Positions 446-36,920 of a stretch of 55,127 nt of DNA are shown here, piece after piece. Each line of letters begins with the position of its first letter. Position 1 is the first letter of the stretch. The stretch spans positions 1 through 55,127 of the IMG/VR virus record IMGVR_UViG_3300023179_004109; one strand, written 5' to 3'. The DNA comes from a virus. Made by a program: the position numbers and the translations under genes. Under the pieces are notes generated by a model. The model was not told the origin of the DNA. It saw only the letters and a list, made by a program, of their open reading frames with translations, and searched no databases.

Positions 446-2461
446 ATGAGCGAGGTAATCCTTAGTCCTGGAGTATTCCAGATCGAATCAGACCAAAGTC
501 TATACACACAAGCACCACAAGTACTTGGAGCCGCTATAGTAGGTCCAACTGTAAGTGGTCGTCCATATGTACCAACATATGTTACTACATACAGTCAATA
601 CTTATCACTATTCGGTGATGATTTTAAAAGTGGCAGTTATTATTACGAATATTTCACATCACTAGCAGCAAAAGAATACTTTAATAATGGTGGCCAAACA
701 CTATTAGTAACTAGAATCATTAGTGGTTCAGCTAATATTGGTACTTATGCTACAGCAATTCCAATTGCTATTAGTACCTTAACCAATGGTATCGCTGCTT
801 CAGCGTCTTTAAATTTAACTAATGCTGCTACTGCTCAACATTCGGCTTCTATCAACGGAACCTATACTTTAAGTTTATCTGGATCATCTGTACAGGATGT
901 TTATAATAGACTTACAGGTTCAGCAGCTTATAGTGCTATTTCTAGTAGTGTTGTTAGTGCTTCATTTTCAACTCCAAATATAATATTTACTGCTATTCCT
1001 AAAGGAACAATAGGTAATATATACAATGTTGTTTCAGGAAGTACAACAACTAATTTTGCAGGTGGTGGTAATGATATTAGTTCATTTACACTTGAAGCAT
1101 TATCTTGGGGTGATCAATTAAATAACCAATCTACATCATCTATAAACGGTGCTTTAGCTAGTGGTTCAATGTCAAATGTACGTTGGGAAGTAACTAACGT
1201 AAATAGTGGTAGTAATGGTGGTACATTTACAATCATAATACGTCGTGGTGATGATAACCAATCTCAAAAGAATATCTTAGAAACATGGGCAAACGTAAGT
1301 TTAGACCCACAATTACCTAACTACATCTCTCGCGTTATTGGTGATTTGAAACCAGTATATAACGTTGCAAATGGATATGTAGATTATCAAGGTACATATG
1401 CTAACGCTTCTCAATACGTTCGTGTATCAGCAGTAACTACTCCAAACGTCGATTCAATTGACAATAACGGTAACTTTAAAACTGGATCATATGCTAATAC
1501 TTTACCATTAGTAGGAAGTGGTTCATATGGTGGTGGTTTTATAGGAGGAGTTGCAGATACAAATGTAGCAAAATTAATGAATGAAAATATTACCTCAACA
1601 AACATTCAAGGATTTGCACCGGCTGATTACAATACAGCATTTACATTATTATCGAATAGAGACGAATATCAATTTAACGTATTAATGGCACCAGGAATTG
1701 GATTAGATTGCTCTGCTGCTGCAAATATGATTGCATGTGTTGAAGGTAGAGGAGATGCAATTGCTATTACAGGCGCGGGAGTATATGGTACCTCAATTAC
1801 AGGTGCTACAACTAATGCTGCTGGTCAATCAAGTAACTACGCCGCAACTTACTATCCATGGATTCAATTATATTCAACACAATTAGGTAAAGTTGTATGG
1901 TGTCCACCATCAACAGTAATCGGTGGTGTATTAGCATTCAACGACCAAGTAGGTGCTGAATGGTTTGCTCCAGCAGGTTTAAACAGAGGTGGTGTTCCAT
2001 CAGTAGTACGTGCAGAACGCAGATTACAACAAACAGATAGAGATACATTATACACAGGAAACGTTAACCCATTAGCTACATTCCCAGGAACTGGAGTTTG
2101 TGTTTGGGGTCAGAAAACATTACAACGTAAACCAACAGCATTAGATCGCGTAAACGTTCGTCGTTTATTGATTGCATTGAAAGGATACATTGGTGAAGTT
2201 TCACGTAACTTGGTATTTGAACAAAATACAACTGTAACAAGAAATAGTTTCTTAGCTAGAGTTAATCCATACTTAGAATCAGTAGTACAACGTCAAGGTT
2301 TGTATGCTTACAAAGTAGTAATGGATGATACAAATAACACAGCTGATGTAGTAGATCGTAACCAATTGGTAGGTCAAATCTATATTCAACCAACAAAAAC
2401 TGCTGAGTTTATTATCTTGAACTTCAACATATTACCAACTGGCGCTACATTCCCTGCATAA
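446..2461 (+). CDS. Tail sheath protein (T4 gp18-like)
   Basis: This 671-residue protein is the contractile tail sheath subunit, which polymerises around the tail tube and shortens during injection. The N-terminus (LSPGVFQIESDQS, then a Thr/Tyr-rich segment with YSQYLSLFGD) is the classic sheath start. The last ~150 residues carry the conserved sheath C-terminal domain, with a basic helix (DRVNVRRLLIALKGYI), a RNSFLARVNPYLESV-type segment and a hydrophobic terminal strand. The length is close to T4 gp18 (659). The middle is Ser/Thr/Gly-rich and variable, as is usual for the surface-exposed insertion domains. The tube gene follows 49 bases downstream, the canonical sheath-tube order. Confidence 0.95.
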   Translation: MSEVILSPGVFQIESDQSLYTQAPQVLGAAIVGPTVSGRPYVPTYVTTYSQYLSLFGDDFKSGSYYYEYFTSLAAKEYFNNGGQTLLVTRIISGSANIGTYATAIPIAISTLTNGIAASASLNLTNAATAQHSASINGTYTLSLSGSSVQDVYNRLTGSAAYSAISSSVVSASFSTPNIIFTAIPKGTIGNIYNVVSGSTTTNFAGGGNDISSFTLEALSWGDQLNNQSTSSINGALASGSMSNVRWEVTNVNSGSNGGTFTIIIRRGDDNQSQKNILETWANVSLDPQLPNYISRVIGDLKPVYNVANGYVDYQGTYANASQYVRVSAVTTPNVDSIDNNGNFKTGSYANTLPLVGSGSYGGGFIGGVADTNVAKLMNENITSTNIQGFAPADYNTAFTLLSNRDEYQFNVLMAPGIGLDCSAAANMIACVEGRGDAIAITGAGVYGTSITGATTNAAGQSSNYAATYYPWIQLYSTQLGKVVWCPPSTVIGGVLAFNDQVGAEWFAPAGLNRGGVPSVVRAERRLQQTDRDTLYTGNVNPLATFPGTGVCVWGQKTLQRKPTALDRVNVRRLLIALKGYIGEVSRNLVFEQNTTVTRNSFLARVNPYLESVVQRQGLYAYKVVMDDTNNTADVVDRNQLVGQIYIQPTKTAEFIILNFNILPTGATFPA

Positions 2462-2510: not shown

Positions 2511-2999
2511 ATGGCAGTATTAAATCCAAATGAAATCATGTTTACAGCGTTTGAACCTAAGGTTGCAAATCGCTTTATCATGTATATAGACGGTATTCCC
2601 GCATACTTAATTAAAAAAGCTAATGCTCCTGGATTTGATGCCAGTGAGATTACATTAGATCACATTAACGTTTACCGTAAAATTAAAGGTAAAGTTAAAT
2701 GGAACGACATAACAATGGAATTGTATGATCCAATCACTCCAAGTGGTGCACAATCTGTAATGGAATGGGCTCGTTTGGCACATGAATCAGTAACAGGCCG
2801 TGATGGTTATTCCGATTTTTACAAGAAAGATCTTACTTTAAACGTTTTAGGACCAGTAGGCGATATCGTTGGAGAGTGGATTATCAAAGGAGCTTATGTT
2901 AAAACAGCTACATTTGGTGATTATGATTGGGCAACAGGTGATGCAGCTATTTCACTTAGTGTAACAGTTGCTATGGATTATTGCGTATTGAATTTCTAG
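2511..2999 (+). CDS. Tail tube protein (T4 gp19-like)
   Basis: This 162-residue protein is the major subunit of the inner tail tube. The size matches T4 gp19 (163). It begins with a FEPKVANRFIMYIDGIPAYLI-type strand, followed by KGKVKWNDITMELYDPI and an SGAQSVMEWARLAHE segment, all typical of gp19-family tubes. It lies directly after the sheath gene and before the assembly-chaperone and tape-measure genes, the standard contractile-tail order. It is followed by a strong terminator hairpin. Confidence 0.93.
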   Translation: MAVLNPNEIMFTAFEPKVANRFIMYIDGIPAYLIKKANAPGFDASEITLDHINVYRKIKGKVKWNDITMELYDPITPSGAQSVMEWARLAHESVTGRDGYSDFYKKDLTLNVLGPVGDIVGEWIIKGAYVKTATFGDYDWATGDAAISLSVTVAMDYCVLNF

Positions 3000-3091: not shown

Positions 3092-3850
3092 ATGGCTGAA
3101 TTAAATTTACCAACAGAAATAGTTACATTACCATCAAAAGGTTTATTGTATCCTAAAGACTCACCACTTTCCAAAGGCGAAATTGAAATGAAATATATGA
3201 CGGCTAAGGAAGAAGATATCCTTACCAACAGCAATTTCATTCGTCAAGGTACAGTAATAGACAAACTATTACAAGCATTAATCGTTACAAAAATCAACTA
3301 CGATGAATTATTAATCGGCGATAAAAATGCTATACTTATCGCAGCTCGCATACTTGGATATGGTGCTGATTACTCGTTTAAATATACCAACGAACGCGGA
3401 CAAGAAACAGAAGCAAGTGTTGATTTATCAACATTAGATGAAAAACCAATAGACGAATCTTTATTTACAGCGGGTGTAAATGATTTTACTTTTAGTTTAC
3501 CTAAATCAAGTAATACTATTACGTTTAAGTTATTAACACACGGTGATGAAAAAAAGATTGAAGCTGAAATTAAAGGATTACAAAAACTAAACCCAAATAG
3601 TTCATCCGATGTAACAACTCGTATGAAATATATGATTACATCAATAAATGGTGATAGAGAAGCAAAAGCAGTACGCGACTTCGTAGATAACTACTTACTA
3701 GCACCAGACGCTAGAGCATTACGTGAATACTACGCTAAAGTACAACCAGATATTAACCTTAAGTTTATGCCTGACGATGAAAATTATACAGGGGAGGGTA
3801 TAGCGATTCCAATTTCGCTTAACTTTTTTTGGCCTGACTCCGGAGTATAG
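3092..3850 (+). CDS. Tail assembly / baseplate protein, T4 gp26-like, upstream frame of a frameshift pair
   Basis: The 252-residue product starts with a conserved TLPSKGLLYPKDSPL segment followed by KGEIEMKYMTAKEEDIL, resembling the T4 baseplate hub gp26 (T4_baseplate) family. It lies between the tube and tape-measure genes, the position held in most long-tailed phages by the first tail assembly chaperone. The zero frame ends in TAG at 3848-3850, shortly after a run of seven T, where ribosomes could move to the +1 frame and continue to 4100. It is therefore best read as the short product of a gpG/gpGT-like pair. Family membership is moderately sure; the chaperone role is inferred from position. 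Confidence 0.8.
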   Translation: MAELNLPTEIVTLPSKGLLYPKDSPLSKGEIEMKYMTAKEEDILTNSNFIRQGTVIDKLLQALIVTKINYDELLIGDKNAILIAARILGYGADYSFKYTNERGQETEASVDLSTLDEKPIDESLFTAGVNDFTFSLPKSSNTITFKLLTHGDEKKIEAEIKGLQKLNPNSSSDVTTRMKYMITSINGDREAKAVRDFVDNYLLAPDARALREYYAKVQPDINLKFMPDDENYTGEGIAIPISLNFFWPDSGV

Positions 3851-4100
3851 ACCACATCTATTTAAACAAATACATGAAATTGTATTTCATGGTGGTGGGG
3901 GTTATGATTGGGAAACCGTCTATAATATGCCATTATGGTTGCGTCGTACTACATTTAATTTATTAAATGAACATTTTAATAAACAAAATGAAGAAACTGA
4001 AAAGCAACAAAATATGCTAAAAAATAATAAATCTAGCAAAGAGATATCACGCCCCAATATTGCTAATCCAACCTATACCGCGAAGGTCCCACGAAAGTAG
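3804..4100 (+). CDS. Downstream tail-assembly frame (gp51-like), probably made by +1 frameshift
   Basis: The +1 frame is open from just after a TAG at 3801-3803 to the stop at 4098-4100. It encodes LTPEYRPHLFKQIHEIVFHG, then a GYDWETVYNMPLWLRR segment and a charged tail. The YNMP-WLRR motif resembles gp51-type baseplate assembly proteins of T4-like phages. The conserved part begins well before the first in-frame ATG at 3927, so independent initiation would lose it. Fusion at the seven-T run would give a product of about 335 residues. The order (tube, frame 1, frame 2, tape measure) is that of classic tail assembly chaperone frameshift genes. Confidence 0.7.
   Translation, partial: RFQFRLTFFGLTPEYRPHLFKQIHEIVFHGGGGYDWETVYNMPLWLRRTTFNLLNEHFNKQNEETEKQQNMLKNNKSSKEISRPNIANPTYTAKVPRK
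3824..3830 (+). promoter_or_regulatory. Candidate programmed +1 frameshift site (seven-T run)
   Basis: The zero-frame codons are AAC TTT TTT TGG. A phenylalanine tRNA on the second TTT can slide one base forward onto another TTT with full pairing, after which GGC CTG ACT continues the downstream frame. The overlap in which a shift can occur is only 3804-3850, and this is the only long homopolymer in it. A -1 shift does not reach the downstream frame; it meets TGA at once. Confidence 0.6.
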
Positions 4101-4137: not shown

Positions 4138-6603
4138 ATGGCAGACCCAACAGCAGAAGATATAAAAAGACTAGCCGAACAACAGGCAAAATTTAATGCT
4201 GAGATGAATAAAACTCAAGATTTACTTGAGTCTATAGATAATATCATAAGCGATAATCTTACTAAAAGCTTAGAAGATAGTCTTAAAGCGACTAGAGCCT
4301 TAAATACTGATTTTTCTTCTGGGATAGACATCACTAAACGACTATCAGAAGCTCAAAAGAAATCAACTAGAGAGATAGAAGAACTAGAATTTCAAAGAAG
4401 TAGAAATTTAGCAAAACAAGCTAATACTAGAAAAGGAGAAAAATTAGAAGAATTATTAGCTGAAAAACGTATATTAGATGCTCAATTAAAAATAATTAAT
4501 AATAATGATAACAATTTGCGCTCTCTTCAAAATGCTATTGAGGTTGAAAAACAAATTGCTGCTGAAAAAGAAAAAGCAACAGAAGAATTAAAAAAACAAA
4601 ATAGTTTAGCTAATGTTATTAAAAATGCAGCTAAAGATACTTTTAAAGATTATACAAAATTATTTTCAGTAGCTGGTATCTTCCAAACAATAGTAGAGGG
4701 AGCATTACGATTTGATAAAACATCAGCAGAGATAGGAAAAAATATAGGTTATGGAGCAGGTCAGGCTGGATTGATGGCTGCCAAAATGCAAGGGATTGCT
4801 TTAAGTTCAAGTAACATAAACGTTACTATGAAAAATGCATCCGAAGCTATGGGTGAATTAAATGCAGCTACTGGACTTGTAGCTAACTATTCAAAAGATA
4901 CTTTAGTAACACAGATAATGTTAACCAAGCAATTTGGTTTAACAGGAGAAGAAGCAGCAGGAATATATAAATTTTCAGTTCTAACAGGAAAATCATCTGA
5001 AAAAGTTAATGATGAAATGGTGGGTGCCTTCGTAGCAACCAGAAATGCATCAAAAGTAGGGGTTGATTTTAAAAAAACAATGGCCGAAGCTTCAAAAGTA
5101 TCAGGCCAATTAGCAGCAAACCTACAAAATAACCCAGCAAAAATTGTAGCGGCCGTAGTGCAGATGAAAGCATTAGGTACTTCATTAGAACAAACAAAAA
5201 ATCAAGGTGCTTCTCTTTTAAACTTTGAATCATCTATTAGTAAAGAATTAGATGCTGAGTTATTAACTGGTAAGCAATTAAATCTTGAAAAAGCAAGAGC
5301 AGCTGCATTATCTGGTGATCAAGTAACATTAGCAGAAGAATTAAATAAAAATGTAGGTACATTAGCTGATTATCAAAAAATGAATGTACTACAGCAAGAT
5401 GCATTAGCAGACGCTGTAGGTTTAACATCAGATCAATTAGCAGATCAGTTAGCTAAACAAAAATTAGCTCAAGAAAGTGGAAAATCATTAGCACAAATAA
5501 CTAAAGAAGAGGCATTAGAAGCACAAAAGCGACAAGATATACAAAAGAAGTTTAATGTTCTTTTAGAAAAAGTACAAGACTTAATAGGCAATATAGGAGT
5601 ATTATTTCAACCAGTTTTATTTGTTCTTGGAAAAATAACAGATAACGCTTTTGTATTTTATGGTTTACTAGCATTAATACTAGCAAGAACTAAATTACTA
5701 GGAACTTCTTTTACAGGAGTAGGAAGTAGTTTTAAAGGAATACTAGGAAAAATAACAGGAAAAGGAGGGGTTGGAGGAGCTGGAGTAGAAGATGCAGCAA
5801 AATCAACAGCTGATGTTGGCGGAAAAGCAGGAGCAGGTGGACCTAAAGCAGGAGAAGGAATTAAAAATACACTTAAAGGAATATCATCTGGTATTTCTTC
5901 ATTTAGTAAAGTTAGTCCGGCTGATATAGCTAAATTAGCATTTTCAGCTTTAGCCTTAGTAGCTTTAACCCCGGCAATCCCTGCTTTATTATTATTACAA
6001 TTAGTAAATGGAAAATTAATACAGAGTGCATTAACTGGAGTAGGGAAGGGATTAGCAGCATTTGGAAAAGCAGTATCAGCAGCAGCTCCGGAAATTCTAA
6101 TAGGTGAATTATTATTAGCAGGATTAGGATTATCATTAATGACATTTGTTCCTATTATTGAAGCTGTGGGTAAGGTTGTAGTTAATGTCTTCACCGCAAT
6201 AGCAGATGGAGTATCTTCTATAATAACTAGTATAGGAGATGTAGCTGCTAAATTAGGTGAAATTACACCTATGTTATTATTATTAGGCCCTGCTTTATTT
6301 GGGGTAGCAGCAGGTTTAGGAGCTATGGCTTTATCTTCTTTCTTTGCTATGCCTGTTATAGGGGCTTTAACCGCACTAGGTTTAGTAGCACCAGCTTTAT
6401 CGGCTTTAGGTATTGGTGGTGGTGGTGGTACAAAAGAAGAAGGAATTAAAGGAGCTATATCACCCGATTCAACGGCAATGATTGCAGCTATTAATGAAGT
6501 AAGAGATGCTATAAATAAATTATATAGTAAAGATTCATCAGTTCACATAGATGGTAAAAAAGTAGGTACCACATTAGCTCAAGGTTCACATAAAGTAGCG
6601 TAA
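4138..6603 (+). CDS. Tail length tape measure protein
   Basis: This 821-residue protein is expected to set tail length and to thread the tube lumen. Residues 1-160 are charged and coiled-coil-like (repeated E, K, Q, L), followed by long alanine-rich helices. Hydrophobic segments lie near residues 490-520 and between about 600 and 770, and a Gly/Ala-rich linker lies near 530-580. Such a coiled-coil N-terminal half with hydrophobic C-terminal half is typical of tape measure proteins. The end (DGKKVGTTLAQGSHKV) is a short motif seen at the C-terminus of several phage tape measures. It directly follows the tail-assembly frameshift pair and precedes baseplate genes. Confidence 0.85.
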   Translation: MADPTAEDIKRLAEQQAKFNAEMNKTQDLLESIDNIISDNLTKSLEDSLKATRALNTDFSSGIDITKRLSEAQKKSTREIEELEFQRSRNLAKQANTRKGEKLEELLAEKRILDAQLKIINNNDNNLRSLQNAIEVEKQIAAEKEKATEELKKQNSLANVIKNAAKDTFKDYTKLFSVAGIFQTIVEGALRFDKTSAEIGKNIGYGAGQAGLMAAKMQGIALSSSNINVTMKNASEAMGELNAATGLVANYSKDTLVTQIMLTKQFGLTGEEAAGIYKFSVLTGKSSEKVNDEMVGAFVATRNASKVGVDFKKTMAEASKVSGQLAANLQNNPAKIVAAVVQMKALGTSLEQTKNQGASLLNFESSISKELDAELLTGKQLNLEKARAAALSGDQVTLAEELNKNVGTLADYQKMNVLQQDALADAVGLTSDQLADQLAKQKLAQESGKSLAQITKEEALEAQKRQDIQKKFNVLLEKVQDLIGNIGVLFQPVLFVLGKITDNAFVFYGLLALILARTKLLGTSFTGVGSSFKGILGKITGKGGVGGAGVEDAAKSTADVGGKAGAGGPKAGEGIKNTLKGISSGISSFSKVSPADIAKLAFSALALVALTPAIPALLLLQLVNGKLIQSALTGVGKGLAAFGKAVSAAAPEILIGELLLAGLGLSLMTFVPIIEAVGKVVVNVFTAIADGVSSIITSIGDVAAKLGEITPMLLLLGPALFGVAAGLGAMALSSFFAMPVIGALTALGLVAPALSALGIGGGGGTKEEGIKGAISPDSTAMIAAINEVRDAINKLYSKDSSVHIDGKKVGTTLAQGSHKVA

Positions 6604-25268: not shown

Positions 25269-26111
25269 ATGAAAAAACAAGCAGTATTAAGCCTATCAGG
25301 TGGAATGGATTCATCTACACTATTACTTCATTTATTAGCTGAAGGTTATCAGGTAACAGCATTAGGATTTGACTACGGTCAAAAACACAAAGTAGAATTA
25401 GAGCGTGCTACATCACTAGTAAAGTATATTAATGACGTTATGTTTGAAACTAAACGAGACAATTTCATTAAACATCAAATTATTAAATTAGACGGATTAT
25501 CACAATTATTAAACTCAGCACTAGTAGAAGGTGGAAAAGATGTTCCTGAAGGTCACTACGAACAAGACAACATGAAAGAAACAGTTGTTCCTAATCGTAA
25601 TAAGATATTCAGTTCATTAATCCAAGCAGTAGCATTATCAATCGCTACTAAAGGAGAAAAACAAGAGTGTGTTATTGCAATGGGAATCCATGCTGGTGAT
25701 CATGCTATTTATCCTGATTGCAGACAAGAATTTAGAGATATTGATTTTGAAGCATTTAAAACGGGTAACTGGGATTCTGAATTAGTATCTGTTTATACTC
25801 CGTACTTGCACGAAGATAAATTCGGTATATTGCAAGATGGATTAGCAGCATGTAACAAATTAGGTCTTGAATTTGATGAAGTATATAAGCGCACAAACAC
25901 ATCTTACAAACCAATTAAATTATCAAAGGATATATGGTTATCTGATTATAAATCAGCAGCATCAGTAGAACGTGTAGAAGCATTTATTAAATTAGGTAGA
26001 CCAGATCCAGTACAATATGGTGAAGTAGTAGAAGGTGGTGGAATAAGAATAGTAAAATGGGCAGAAGTAAGAGCATCAGTAAAAGAAGTATTAGATGCAC
26101 ACAATTCGTAA
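25269..26111 (+). CDS. queC: 7-cyano-7-deazaguanine (preQ0) synthase, QueC-like
   Basis: This 280-residue protein is an ATP-dependent enzyme converting carboxy-deazaguanine to preQ0. The PP-loop SGGMDSS is at residues 10-16, followed by GFDYGQKHKVEL, a VVPNRNKIFSS segment and IAMGIHAGDHAIYPDCRQEF, all diagnostic of QueC. The C-terminal region that normally holds four zinc cysteines (SCY ... CGxCxSC) reads TSYKP ... DYKSAASVER: the four positions are Ser212, Asp226, Ser229 and Ser232. The fold must therefore be stable without zinc, or the enzyme has changed. It is longer than E. coli QueC (231). Probably regulated with the structured leader upstream. Confidence 0.92.
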   Translation: MKKQAVLSLSGGMDSSTLLLHLLAEGYQVTALGFDYGQKHKVELERATSLVKYINDVMFETKRDNFIKHQIIKLDGLSQLLNSALVEGGKDVPEGHYEQDNMKETVVPNRNKIFSSLIQAVALSIATKGEKQECVIAMGIHAGDHAIYPDCRQEFRDIDFEAFKTGNWDSELVSVYTPYLHEDKFGILQDGLAACNKLGLEFDEVYKRTNTSYKPIKLSKDIWLSDYKSAASVERVEAFIKLGRPDPVQYGEVVEGGGIRIVKWAEVRASVKEVLDAHNS

Positions 26112-26132
26112 ACAAAAATCAAATATACAGTT

Positions 26133-26363
26133 ATGAGTTATCAAACAAAAGTTCGTGCTAATTACATGAACAGAACAGCAAAGTTAGCCTTCTTTAAAGC
26201 CCGTAGACGCACAGGCGACGTTACTAAAGTAGCAGAAACAGTAGGTTATTCAACTAGTCACGTATCTAATACAATTAGTGGTACTAGGAGAATTAACAAT
26301 ACAATTGCAAATGCAATGTATTCACTAACACGCAGACGCATCAAAAACAGTGAGTTAGCATAA
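26133..26363 (+). CDS. Small basic helix-turn-helix protein
   Basis: A 76-residue, strongly basic protein. Residues about 28-60 (GDVTKVAETVGYSTSHVSNT, then ISGTRRINN) have the shape of a Cro/XRE-type helix-turn-helix, with the recognition helix at STSHVSNTI. Arg-rich flanks (FFKARRRTG, SLTRRRIKN) would contact DNA backbone. It follows queC and ends just before a strong terminator, so it may regulate this locus. A nucleoid-type DNA-binding role is an alternative. Confidence 0.78.
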   Translation: MSYQTKVRANYMNRTAKLAFFKARRRTGDVTKVAETVGYSTSHVSNTISGTRRINNTIANAMYSLTRRRIKNSELA

Positions 26364-26377
26364 GCTAATCCATACCC

Positions 26378-26417
26378 AAGATCTCAGTTGCCCCGTAAGG
26401 CAATTGGGATCTTTTTT
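26378..26417 (+). terminator. Strong Rho-independent terminator after the HTH gene
   Basis: AAGATCTCAGTTGCC (26378-26392) pairs with GGCAATTGGGATCTT (26399-26413) over 15 positions, with two G-U pairs and a six-base loop, followed by a run of six T. It ends the queD-dpdA-queC-HTH unit and is the best terminator in the window. Confidence 0.93.
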
Positions 26418-26429
26418 AAACTTAACATT

Positions 26430-26555
26430 ATGATAGAATTTATAGAACATACTTTAGGATTGTGTGGAGAAAAGCATTTTAGTATTGCAGCAGTAATATT
26501 GGATTGGCAAAACTTTAGTTCTATATTAAACTATATTAAATCATTATTCAAATAA
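26430..26555 (+). CDS. Small protein (41 aa) downstream of the terminator
   Basis: An ATG at 26430 opens 41 codons ending in TAA at 26553-26555. The product starts MIEFIEHTLGLCGEKHFSIA and ends ILNYIKSLFK. I recall similar IEHTLGLCGE short proteins in other phages with deazaguanine genes, which supports it as real, but I cannot run a search. It has a single Cys and an amphipathic character. No function known. Confidence 0.6.
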   Translation: MIEFIEHTLGLCGEKHFSIAAVILDWQNFSSILNYIKSLFK

Positions 26556-26573
26556 AACATGGAGGATAAAACT

Positions 26574-26723
26574 ATGAAGTGTATTAAAAGTAATAAAACC
26601 GGAAACATCATCCGAGTAAGCAATCAACAAGCAGATCAAACTGTAGGCAAGGAATGGAAATTCGTATCTAAATCAGAGTGGAAAAATAAAGATAAAGCCG
26701 ATAATAATGAAACAAAAGCTTAA
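26574..26723 (+). CDS. Small basic protein (49 aa) with a canonical ribosome binding site
   Basis: The ATG at 26574 is preceded by GGAGG at 26561-26565 with an 8-base spacer, the clearest Shine-Dalgarno sequence in the window. An in-frame ATG at 26559 overlaps that site and is less likely. The 49-residue product (MKCIKSNKTGNIIRVSNQQA, then VGKEWKFVSKSEWKN) looks like a small strand-rich phage protein with a Lys/Asn-rich tail. It overlaps the next start by 17 bases. Function unknown. Confidence 0.65.
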   Translation: MKCIKSNKTGNIIRVSNQQADQTVGKEWKFVSKSEWKNKDKADNNETKA

Positions 26724-26970
26724 AGAAGCAGCTATACTATTCTTCATACAAATATGCTCATATGGCTTATTATGTATCAATTTTAGAGCAGTAGCACAAA
26801 CACAATATCACTTAGCAGCAATGACTGACTTCGCTTTAGCTAGTATGTCGTTCTTCATTATTAGAAAGATAGCTAGAAGTGAAGATGCAGTACATCAGTG
26901 GTTAGGATATGTAGCTGGTAGTGTAACCGGTTCATATTTAGGAATTTATCTATCAACATTAATACATTAA
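26707..26970 (+). CDS. Small membrane protein (87 aa)
   Basis: The product has a basic start and two or three hydrophobic segments: about residues 9-25, 40-55 and 66-84 (the last glycine-rich). It is probably an inner-membrane protein. Cys is present in the first segment. It is sandwiched between small genes and queE and overlaps the preceding gene. I do not recognise the family; membership in the deazaguanine locus is by position only. Confidence 0.72.
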   Translation: MKQKLKEAAILFFIQICSYGLLCINFRAVAQTQYHLAAMTDFALASMSFFIIRKIARSEDAVHQWLGYVAGSVTGSYLGIYLSTLIH

Positions 26971-26971
26971 T

Positions 26972-27871
26972 ATGAGTAAAATAGAATCAAATAAGCTACT
27001 AATCAGTAGCGACTTTTATTCCGTCCAAGGAGAGGGAATAAGTACTGGAATACCATCGTACTTCGTACGTTTAGCACTATGTAATTTAACTTGTGGTATG
27101 TCTAGACCATTCACTAACAAACTATTAAAGGAATCAGCATTAGCTGATGGTGAAATATTTAAAGGTGATTTAGAATTAGAAGGTAAAGCTACTTGGACTT
27201 GTGATAGTACATCCCAGTGGTTATGGAGAGGTGAAAATAAAGATTTCCAATACCTAATTGATCAATGGAAAGAACAAGGTATATACGATGATATCTTAAG
27301 CGGTACTATTCATATTATTTGGACAGGTGGTGAACCTACAATTAAAGGACATCAAGAGGCTATCTACAACTTCACTCAGTATTGGTTTAATCAATATCCA
27401 ATAGCAGAAAGAGCTTTAGGAAAAAATAAAAATCATTTAAAATTCTATTCTAATTTTGATTATCTTTCCGAATTAAAACCATTCTATGAAATTGAAACTA
27501 ACGGTACAATTGTAATTGAACATCCGTTATTTAATATGTTAGATCAAATCAACTGCTCACCTAAGTTATCTAATTCAGGTATGACAGAAAAGCAACGGAT
27601 CAATCCAGAAGCAATAGAGCGCATTAAACAACATTCCAATTATCAATTTAAATTTGTAATCAGTAATGAAGAAGATGTTAAAGAATTATTTCGTGATTTT
27701 ATCGTACCATTTAGCATACCTCTTAAGAATGTAGTTTGTATGCCAGGTTTAGATAGTCAAACTGACTTCCATGAGCGTACTCAATTCGTATTGGAAATGG
27801 CTAAAAAATATAAATTTAGAGGATTAACAAGATTACACATCTCAGCTTGGGATAAAACATTAAACGTATAA
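26972..27871 (+). CDS. queE: 7-carboxy-7-deazaguanine synthase (QueE), radical SAM
   Basis: A 299-residue radical SAM enzyme, third step of preQ0 synthesis. The start FYSVQGEG is the QueE signature. The iron-sulfur cysteines are Cys37 and Cys41 in LCNLTCG and Cys77 in TWTCDST, with an insertion of about 35 residues between the second and third, a known variant. SAM and substrate motifs follow: WTGGEPT, YEIETNGT, NCSPKLSNSG and FKFVIS. It is two bases downstream of the membrane protein gene and in a unit with FolE. Confidence 0.93.
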   Translation: MSKIESNKLLISSDFYSVQGEGISTGIPSYFVRLALCNLTCGMSRPFTNKLLKESALADGEIFKGDLELEGKATWTCDSTSQWLWRGENKDFQYLIDQWKEQGIYDDILSGTIHIIWTGGEPTIKGHQEAIYNFTQYWFNQYPIAERALGKNKNHLKFYSNFDYLSELKPFYEIETNGTIVIEHPLFNMLDQINCSPKLSNSGMTEKQRINPEAIERIKQHSNYQFKFVISNEEDVKELFRDFIVPFSIPLKNVVCMPGLDSQTDFHERTQFVLEMAKKYKFRGLTRLHISAWDKTLNV

Positions 27872-27872
27872 T

Positions 27873-28106
27873 ATGGCAAAAGATCATTGTGTCCTATGTG
27901 GAGTAGAAACTACATACGACTTTAACACTCATATCGACATGAGACACGGCTACATTGAAGGAGCAGGTCAACTATGTTCTAAATGCTACAGCAGAGGAAC
28001 CGAACACGGAGCTATAGCAGTAGACTATAACATCATTTTAGGAACTCCTAACGATCAAGAGTTGGGAGCCAAAGTAAGGGAATTATATTGGGAACGTAAA
28101 AATTAA
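27873..28106 (+). CDS. Small zinc-ribbon protein
   Basis: A 77-residue protein with two Cys pairs, CVLCG (residues 6-10) and CSKCY, and histidines between them, typical of a structural zinc ribbon. The second half (VDYNIILGTPNDQELGAKVREL) is helical. It starts one base after the queE stop and ends four bases before folE, so it belongs to the same unit. Its role is unknown; a DNA- or RNA-binding adaptor is a possibility. Confidence 0.75.
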   Translation: MAKDHCVLCGVETTYDFNTHIDMRHGYIEGAGQLCSKCYSRGTEHGAIAVDYNIILGTPNDQELGAKVRELYWERKN

Positions 28107-28110
28107 ATAA

Positions 28111-28743
28111 ATGGAATTATTAAAAAAATCAAACGGTAGTCTATCCCGTACACCAGAAGAAATAGAACAAATGATCAATAATGCTACAATAGCATATGCT
28201 AACTTCCTTACAGCAGTTGGATTTGACTATACAGCAGATAGACAAACCGAAGATACACCTCGTCGTGTAGCTAAAGCATGGCTTAAGGACCTAATTATAG
28301 GTTCAGTAACAAACGAACCAAACATCACTACATTCCCTAACGATGAAGGATATGATGGATTAGTAATTCAATCAGGTATTCCTATCACTAGTATGTGTGC
28401 ACATCACAATCTAGCATTTACTGGATTCGCTACAGTAGCATACGTTCCAGGTGAAAATGTAATCGGATTATCAAAATTAAATCGTATCGTTGAATGGTTC
28501 GCTCGCAGACCACAAATGCAAGAATCACTAACACAACAAATACATGATTATCTTGCTAGCAAGATGGACTGTAAATCAGTAGCAGTAAGCATCGCTTGTA
28601 AACATACATGCTGCTCACATAGAGGTATTAAACACGCCTCAGTAATGTCAACAAATAAATTCAGTGGAGTATTCATGGAACGAGATAATTTAATCCGTGA
28701 AGAATTACTATCAGCAATCGAAATGAACGGAACTAAATTCTAA
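28111..28743 (+). CDS. folE: GTP cyclohydrolase I (FolE)
   Basis: This 210-residue protein catalyses the first step from GTP to dihydroneopterin triphosphate, the entry to preQ0 synthesis. Motifs: EDTPRRVAKAW, then MCAHHNLAFTG with the zinc Cys and His, VIGLSKLNRIVEWFARRPQMQE for the GTP-binding helix, and ACKHTCCSHRGIKH with the second zinc Cys and substrate Arg. The length is near that of E. coli FolE (222). It completes the set with QueD, QueE and QueC. Confidence 0.95.
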   Translation: MELLKKSNGSLSRTPEEIEQMINNATIAYANFLTAVGFDYTADRQTEDTPRRVAKAWLKDLIIGSVTNEPNITTFPNDEGYDGLVIQSGIPITSMCAHHNLAFTGFATVAYVPGENVIGLSKLNRIVEWFARRPQMQESLTQQIHDYLASKMDCKSVAVSIACKHTCCSHRGIKHASVMSTNKFSGVFMERDNLIREELLSAIEMNGTKF

Positions 28744-35297: not shown

Positions 35298-36920
35298 ATG
35301 AGTAAAATAATCAGTTTCGACCGCGAAGCAAAACAAAAACTTCAAGCAGGCATCGACAAAGTAAATAAAGCAGTATCCGTTACAATGGGTCCCTTCGGAC
35401 GTAACGTATTAATTGAAAAAGAACATGGTCAAGTAGCATCCACTAAAGATGGAGTTACCGTTTCAAGAACCATTACATTGGAAGATCCAATTGAAAACAT
35501 GGCGGCTACAGTAATTAAACAAGCAGCAGAGAAGACAGTAAGTGCAGCAGGGGATGGAACAACAACAGCAACCGTATTAGCTCACTCAATCGCTTCACAA
35601 GCCCTAGATACTACATCATACCCATCAACAAACGCAACTCAAGTAAAGCGTGGTATCGAACAAGCAGTTAAAGCAGTAGTAGCAGAATTGAAGCAAATGT
35701 CTCGCCCTATTGAAAGCGAAGATCAAATTAAACAAATTGCTACATTATCAGCTAATGGAGATGCTGAAATAGGTGAATTAGTAGCTACAGCATTAGATAA
35801 AGTAGGAAGAGACGGAGTCGTTACAGTAGAGGAATCGCGTACTGGGGAAACTAGTTTAGAAGTAGTAGAAGGTATGCAGTTTGATAGAGGATATAAGTCG
35901 CACTACATGGTAACAGATAACAACACAATGTCTGCTAACCTAACAGATGCATTAGTATTGCTAGTAGATAGTAGAATTTCAGCAGTGAAAGATCTATTAC
36001 CGATTTTAGAATCAGTATCATCAGATAATAAATCATTATTGATTATAGCTGAAGATATTGATGGTGAAGCGCTAGCAACATTGATTGTAAATAAGATGAG
36101 AGGTATTTTGAAGGTAGCTGCTGTTAAAGCACCTGACTTTGGAGAACGCCGTTTATTAATTTTAGAAGACATTGCAACCATTACAGGTGGAACAGTAGTA
36201 TCACCTCAAAAGGGAATGAAATTAGATAAATTCAATAAAACATGGTTTGGATCTGCACGTACAATTACTGTAGGTAAGGATACAACTACAATTATTGATG
36301 GTAAAGGAGATACACAAACAATCGAAACACGTGTATTAGAATTGAAAGCACAAATTGATAAATCAAGTTCACCATATGAAATTGAGAAACTACAAGAGCG
36401 CCTAGCTAAAATGATTGGTGGAGTAGCTATTATCAATGTAGGAGGAGGAACGGATATTGAGATGAAGGAAAAGAAAGATCGCCTTGATGATGCTCTACAA
36501 GCAACACAAGCAGCATTAGATGAAGGTATATTACCTGGAGCTGGAGTAGCATTACTACAAGCTAGAAAGGTACTTAAAGATGATTTAGATAATAAAAATG
36601 ATATATCTAAAGGAGCAGCAATAGTATTTGCAGCTTGTGGAAAACCATTTAAACAAATTCTAGAAAACGCAGGTGAAGATGCTAGTGAATGGTTAATGCA
36701 ATTACTTAAAACTAAAAATATGGTTCCTAATATTACTGAAGGGAAAATAGTAGATGCATTCGATGCAGGCATTATTGATCCTACTAAAGTAGTAAGATCA
36801 GCATTAGAAAATGCAGCTGCAGCAGCAGTAACATTACTGATGACAGAATGTGTAATCCATGACAAGCCTGATACTAAGAAAAAGGTAGAAGACTTTGGGA
36901 TGGCAGAGATGGGAATGTAA
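35298..36920 (+). CDS. groEL: Chaperonin GroEL
   Basis: This 540-residue chaperonin is full length (E. coli 548). The ATP site reads [11 protein letters not shown] and [12 protein letters not shown]; the catalytic Asp is in [10 protein letters not shown] after [10 protein letters not shown]; the apical domain and hinge ([15 protein letters not shown]) are intact. The C-terminus ends FGMAEMGM instead of the long GGM repeats of bacterial GroEL. It would fold phage proteins such as the capsid. The pair is probably acquired from a bacterial host and then AT-enriched like the phage. Confidence 0.97.

Follow-up and report, generated by a model that had tools for sequence, protein, structure and literature searches.

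Comparative evidence for programmed +1 frameshifting at a conserved UUU_Y site in a T4 gp26/gp51-type tail gene

The DNA analysed here (the window: 55,127 nucleotides, positions 1 to 55,127 of IMG/VR virus record IMGVR_UViG_3300023179_004109) very probably carries a T4 gp26/gp51-type tail assembly chaperone gene that is decoded by programmed +1 ribosomal frameshifting, as judged from sequence comparison. On the + strand a run of T4-type tail genes reads sheath, tube, gp26-type ORF, a domain in the +1 frame and a tape-measure-like gene (Table 1), the last having equivalents in Flavobacterium phage immuto and Bacillus phage SP-15 that are annotated "tail tape measure protein". The gp26-type gene and the +1 domain thus lie where G/GT chaperone genes lie, between tube and tape measure, and the gene order agrees with the original prediction on this point. 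The conserved +1 UUU_Y site and an upstream GGAGG element are apparently new. This is a provisional statement, as we found no report of them in the literature and most subscription papers were out of our reach.

Table 1. Features of the tail chaperone region (window coordinates)
Feature	Position	Strand	Basis or remark
Sheath	446-2461	+	T4-type tail gene
Tail tube protein, upstream	2511..2999	+	phrog_4542, E 2e-20
gp26-type ORF, short chaperone form (TAC-N)	3092..3850	+	ATG 3092 to TAG 3848-3850, 252 aa
GGGGAGGGTATA, SD-like element with GGAGG at 3793-3797	3791..3802	+	third codon positions invariant in window clade
Overlap of frame 0 and +1 frame	3804..3850	+	ORF coordinates and relatives
Slippery site C TTT TTT TGG	3823..3832	+	invariant in 110/110 relatives
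TGGCCTGAC	3830..3838	+	frame 0 reads W-P-D; +1 reads (T)GGC CTG AC = G-L-T
+1 frame domain after putative slip, gp51-like C-terminal part of long form (TAC-NC)	3831..4100	+	89 aa, three helices
Probable tape measure protein, downstream	4138..6603	+	821 aa; position, length, equivalent gene annotation

The gp26-type ORF ends inside the +1 frame, an open stretch spanning 3804 to 4100 that directly follows a TAG (3801-3803) and has its first ATG at 3927. The overlap contains seven consecutive T, read in frame 0 as AAC(3821-3823) TTT(3824-3826) TTT(3827-3829) TGG(3830-3832). The stop, the startless open frame and the T run were therefore all as first described. The + strand of the window has no second T7, compared with 16 A7 (window T 0.288, A 0.389). 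Outside the two Phe codons of the run, the gp26 gene contains no in-frame TTT with a pyrimidine after it.

Relatives share this organisation. A first set, drawn from two IMG/VR scans, comprised 110 distinct junctions down to ~62% protein identity; all 110 have the same +1 relation and keep CTTTTTTTGGCCTGA, i.e. (A/G)C-TTTTTTT-GGCCTGA. In 95 of them the +1 frame has no upstream ATG, GTG or TTG, in five a +1-frame stop codon stands immediately 5' of ACTTTTTTTGG, and in 104 the first ATG past the slip site is codon 32, which lies within the conserved domain. Between the gp26 stop and that ATG the +1 frame is under purifying selection (pN/pS 0.145, 108 relatives), and over the same startless stretch it is stop-free in 108, while the other two frames have stops in 108 and 86. 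As in G/GT genes, there is an overlapping second frame that lacks a start and is under selection. A blind search of all IMG/VR contigs with the 16-mer RCTTTTTTTGGCCTGA led to the same place: among the matches listed, 119 of 120 mark the 3' end of an ORF matching a gp26 profile, always in the same frame, and they include very distant lineages. Since motif and frame are kept in 110/110 relatives and 119/120 of the blind matches listed fall at this position, the site is not a chance occurrence.

Variant junctions came from an additional, motif-independent set of relatives. Overall, in 281 of the 283 distinct junctions compared a Phe codon UUU precedes U or C, at either or both of two neighbouring codon positions, with the proviso that 114 of the 283 stem from the motif search and hence carry the T run by selection. 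A conserved slippery site, as found in G/GT genes, is therefore present, of the +1 type and not the usual -1. Conservation of the T run itself, as originally foreseen, holds for the 110 relatives collected first; the run is not essential in general, given relatives that use UUU_C without it. In the two junctions lacking UUU_Y altogether (L316 and L321), the downstream ORF lies in a different frame and starts from an ATG of its own just past the gp26 stop. Separate genes with their own starts, which the original prediction had counted against itself, thus do occur, and exactly these two lineages have lost the slippery site, so that they are a natural control for it. They make the domain from a separate gene, and fusion is accordingly dispensable in some phages. 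Besides its own ATG, the gp51-like ORF of L316 and L321 has a longer N-terminus. Another relative (L030) has a +1 frame of 897 aa that apparently continues into the tape measure gene, reflecting either a real fusion or a sequence error.

In the mechanism we propose, most ribosomes would stay in frame 0 and make gp26 (TAC-N), while a fraction would slip by +1 with tRNA-Phe on UUU in the P site, re-pairing on the overlapping UUU (codons 3824-3826 and 3827-3829). Reading would continue with GGC CUG AC... to yield the 335-aa long form (TAC-NC), in which gp26 continues into a helical domain of gp51 type; in immuto, a slip at the first Phe codon would give the junction peptide ...GVSFFGLTPEYR. If the two products divide their work as lambda gpG and gpGT do, the short form would serve as a coat on the tape measure, and tube subunits would be recruited through the fused domain. 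Comparison displays the overlap, the missing start, the selection on the +1 frame and UUU_Y directly; the slip event and its efficiency we infer.

The variant junctions bear most strongly on rival routes into the same frame. In TTT CTT TGG, TTT CTA TGG and TTT CTT TAC the first position (UUU to UUC) is the only one where tRNA-Phe can re-pair, and in TTC TTT TGG the second is; these TTT CTT, TTT CTA and TTC TTT variants offer no -2 re-pairing and have a longest T run of 4. Because such variants without a T run exist, a +1 slip of tRNA-Phe on a Phe codon, as originally predicted, is the one mechanism compatible with all relatives, and both -2 slippage and transcriptional slippage are disfavoured. 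A -2 ribosomal slip on the T run, of the type described for phage Mu, would reach the same frame, and T7 does allow the second tRNA-Phe to re-pair at -2 in 243 of the 283 junctions; we nonetheless regard it as unlikely, since re-pairing is impossible in the variants just listed, although their frame relation and protein are unchanged. More improbable still is slippage of RNA polymerase on T7, giving mRNAs of altered length: the site does contain a 7-base homopolymer, yet relatives whose run is just 3 or 4 T long keep the arrangement.

That the +1 ORF is instead a separate gene, translated from a non-standard start (e.g. CTG 3834) or by re-initiation, seems to us just as improbable as polymerase slippage. 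The separate gene of L316 and L321, with its ATG just past the gp26 stop, gives this idea a precedent, and the CTG is invariant among relatives. However, dual coding (P-D over L-T) forces that CTG, most relatives have no ATG, GTG or TTG near the stop, the slippery site is gone precisely where a true ATG exists, and neither the T run nor the synonymous constraint 5' of it would have an explanation. An indel at the T run, introduced in sequencing or assembly and splitting one continuous ORF, would be conceivable given that homopolymers are error-prone on some platforms; its probability is negligible, as the same frames recur in 110 independent contigs and several isolate genomes (e.g. RM378, SP-15 and immuto), some without the run, and relatives had already refuted it.

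Synonymous conservation is unusual at two places near the 3' end of gp26, GGG GAG GGY ATA (3791-3802) and TTT TTT TGG CCT GAC. Slipping plus dual coding in frame 0 and +1 would account for the second and not for the first, dual coding explaining the conservation of TGGCCTGAC in particular. Elsewhere in gp26, in-frame UUU is followed by a pyrimidine less commonly than other NNT codons are (16.8% vs 31.0%), as expected if UUU_Y is slippery. Some points count against the +1 reading: UUU_U reportedly works less well than CUU_U for +1 shifting (PMC5009743), neither a stop codon nor a conserved downstream structure is there to aid the slip, the +1 domain is only weakly related to gp51, and L316 and L321 do without the fusion. 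RNAalifold on the aligned relatives found no RNA structure 3' of the slip site, and Rfam gave no match. A weak GGGY/GGCC pairing around the site was rejected, being without covariation and of a kind the ribosome would melt.

The original prediction missed the conserved GGAGG upstream. This SD-like GGGGAGGG recurs in relatives at the place it has in the window, its synonymous positions invariant. At this site the otherwise rare Gly codon GGG is identical in every pair, whereas nearby four-fold sites mostly differ in roughly 40-65% of pairs. Within 75 nt upstream, 230 of 282 junctions have a GGAGG, where synonymous codon shuffling predicts 33.7, though the sequences are related and the counts not independent. 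Members of the window clade have the first G 31 nt 5' of the first Phe codon, and across relatives its distance to the slip codon is usually 30-31 nt. In a lineage able to slip only at the first Phe codon GGAGG starts 30-31 nt before it, and in a group able to slip only at the second it stands 28 nt before the first and 31 before the second; some lineages have it at 22 nt. As ORF starts in the window are mostly without Shine-Dalgarno sequences (48/52), GGAGG is not the usual initiation signal of this phage. Neither tRNA genes nor a phage-encoded bS21 were found in the window.

Other sources of the GGAGG conservation were considered and set aside. Internal initiation lacks a conserved +1-frame start codon at a fitting distance; an overlapping gene is argued against on the same strand by stop codons that interrupt the other sense frames of nearly every relative, and on the opposite strand by stops in each of the three antisense frames, which many to all relatives have. 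By these comparisons, selection acts on the nucleotides of the element itself, which probably has a modulating effect on the frameshift. Placed with its first G 30-31 nt 5' of the slipping Phe codon, GGAGG might even be a new kind of +1 stimulator that contacts the anti-SD internally, or spaces ribosomes, from a fixed distance in phages mostly without SDs at gene starts, within a chaperone family that evolved between +1, -1, gene duplication (T4) and a separate start; we consider this possible rather than probable.

We infer the chaperone function from position, family and published work on T4. The gp26-type ORF scores 28.6 bits against PF12322 (T4_baseplate), above the curated cut-off of 24.5, and hence belongs to this family; it also matches phrog_150 (E 3.5e-11). 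The fused product was modelled as two separate parts. AlphaFold gave a pLDDT of 93.6 for the gp26-type part, whose viral structural neighbours are baseplate hub subunits of T4-like phages. Among the PDB matches listed, the highest target-normalised TM-score was 0.47 for the HK97 chaperone 2OB9, with a non-significant E of 3.7. The +1 domain (pLDDT 79) is modelled as three helices. Of the original prediction of a conserved gp51-like domain, the conserved domain under selection was confirmed, while similarity to gp51 is weak: phrog_634 (T4 gp51) gives an E of 0.0017 for the window and matches 2 of 58 members, hhalign gives P 0.034 over 51 columns, and the structural neighbours, all non-significant, include the Moogle 'tape measure chaperone' and ZZ1 gp51. 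On the phrog_150 profile, T4 gp51 covers positions 3-281, T4 gp26 positions 10-236 and the fused +1 product of a relative (L203) positions 25-281. Eleven of 58 relatives have a +1 domain (3831-4097 in the window) with a match to Pfam DUF6760, at best E 1.6e-5; this family, of unknown function, is possibly, by sequence, a wider relative of the chaperone C-domain.

The +1 layout is found in isolates, namely immuto, Microcystis phage Mel-JY01, Rhodothermus phage RM378, SP-15, Listeria phage LIS04, Streptococcus phage SagM-GXN1 (UUU_CGU) and Xanthomonas phage phiXF1, and also in uncultured LR756508. XacN1, RAS14 and LR756511 have a -1 second frame, with T_TTT_TTT or T_TTT_TTC. Cyanophages P-SSM2 and S-PM2 share with the window the gp26/gp51 family, the overlap and an upstream GGAGGG, but shift by -1 at T_TTT_TTC, with GGAGG about 10 nt before the run. 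In T4, gp26 is the short form and gp51 the long one (a gp26-like part plus a C-terminal extension); unlike the window's one gene plus +1 frame, these are separate genes on opposite strands, gp51 being a full-length paralog of gp26 (blastp 2e-6). Taken together, these layouts imply that the family uses at least four arrangements of the two parts. The large related contigs searched (126-188 kb) each have one gp26 copy and no second, long T4-like paralog; no relatives were found in bacterial genomes, nor in plasmids searched with the gp26 of SP-15 and of a further relative (L186).

Release factor 2 (prfB) offers another +1 shift with an upstream SD-like element. It slips at CUU, with a stop codon next and the SD at a distance of 3 nt; the window differs in both respects, having the sense codon UGG in the A site and a GGAGG that starts 31 nt upstream and ends 26 nt before the slip codon. 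Lambda gpG/gpGT resembles the window in lying between tube and tape measure, in overlapping near the 3' end and in giving a short and a long product (Xu, Hendrix, Duda 2004; PMC5009743). It and its counterparts usually shift by -1, at X_XXY_YYZ where the second frame is -1, whereas the second frame in the window is +1, at UUU_Y. A closer parallel in direction is the chaperone of HSTV-2, a myovirus like those compared here but archaeal, for which a +1 shift is very likely (PMC5009743). Influenza A PA-X (UCC_UUU_CGU) likewise shifts by +1 where a pyrimidine follows the P-site UUU, and needs no stop codon (PMC5009743), in an unrelated virus and on the eukaryotic ribosome; the UUU_CGU of SagM-GXN1 is the same as in PA-X.

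That T4 gp26 and gp51 correspond to the G/GT pair, also part of the original prediction, is right and already published: Vladimirov, Gautam and Davidson 2022 (Virology 566:9-15), as reported in PMC10885494 and PMC12846349, identified the chaperones in T4-like phages, T4 gp26/gp51 among them. A review had described G-T frameshifting as widely conserved 'except T4' (PMC5009743). Our comparison suggests that +1 shifting in the T4-type chaperone family spans a wide range of environmental phages and isolates, its signal being kept in hundreds, and that the two genes of T4 are one of several solutions. With its series of natural +1 variants, UUU_U and UUU_C, and a further conserved element upstream, the site would be useful for studying +1 programming without a stop codon.

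Annotation could be corrected in immuto (L281, 3839-3949) and SP-15 (L284, 3755-3874), where the +1 domain is annotated only as a hypothetical ORF of ~40 aa, an internal fragment of it. Elsewhere in the window, ORFs at 25269-28743 resemble QueC, QueE and FolE by eye, a possible 7-deazaguanine modification cluster, and an ORF at 35298-36920 resembles, again by eye, a phage-encoded GroEL-type chaperonin.
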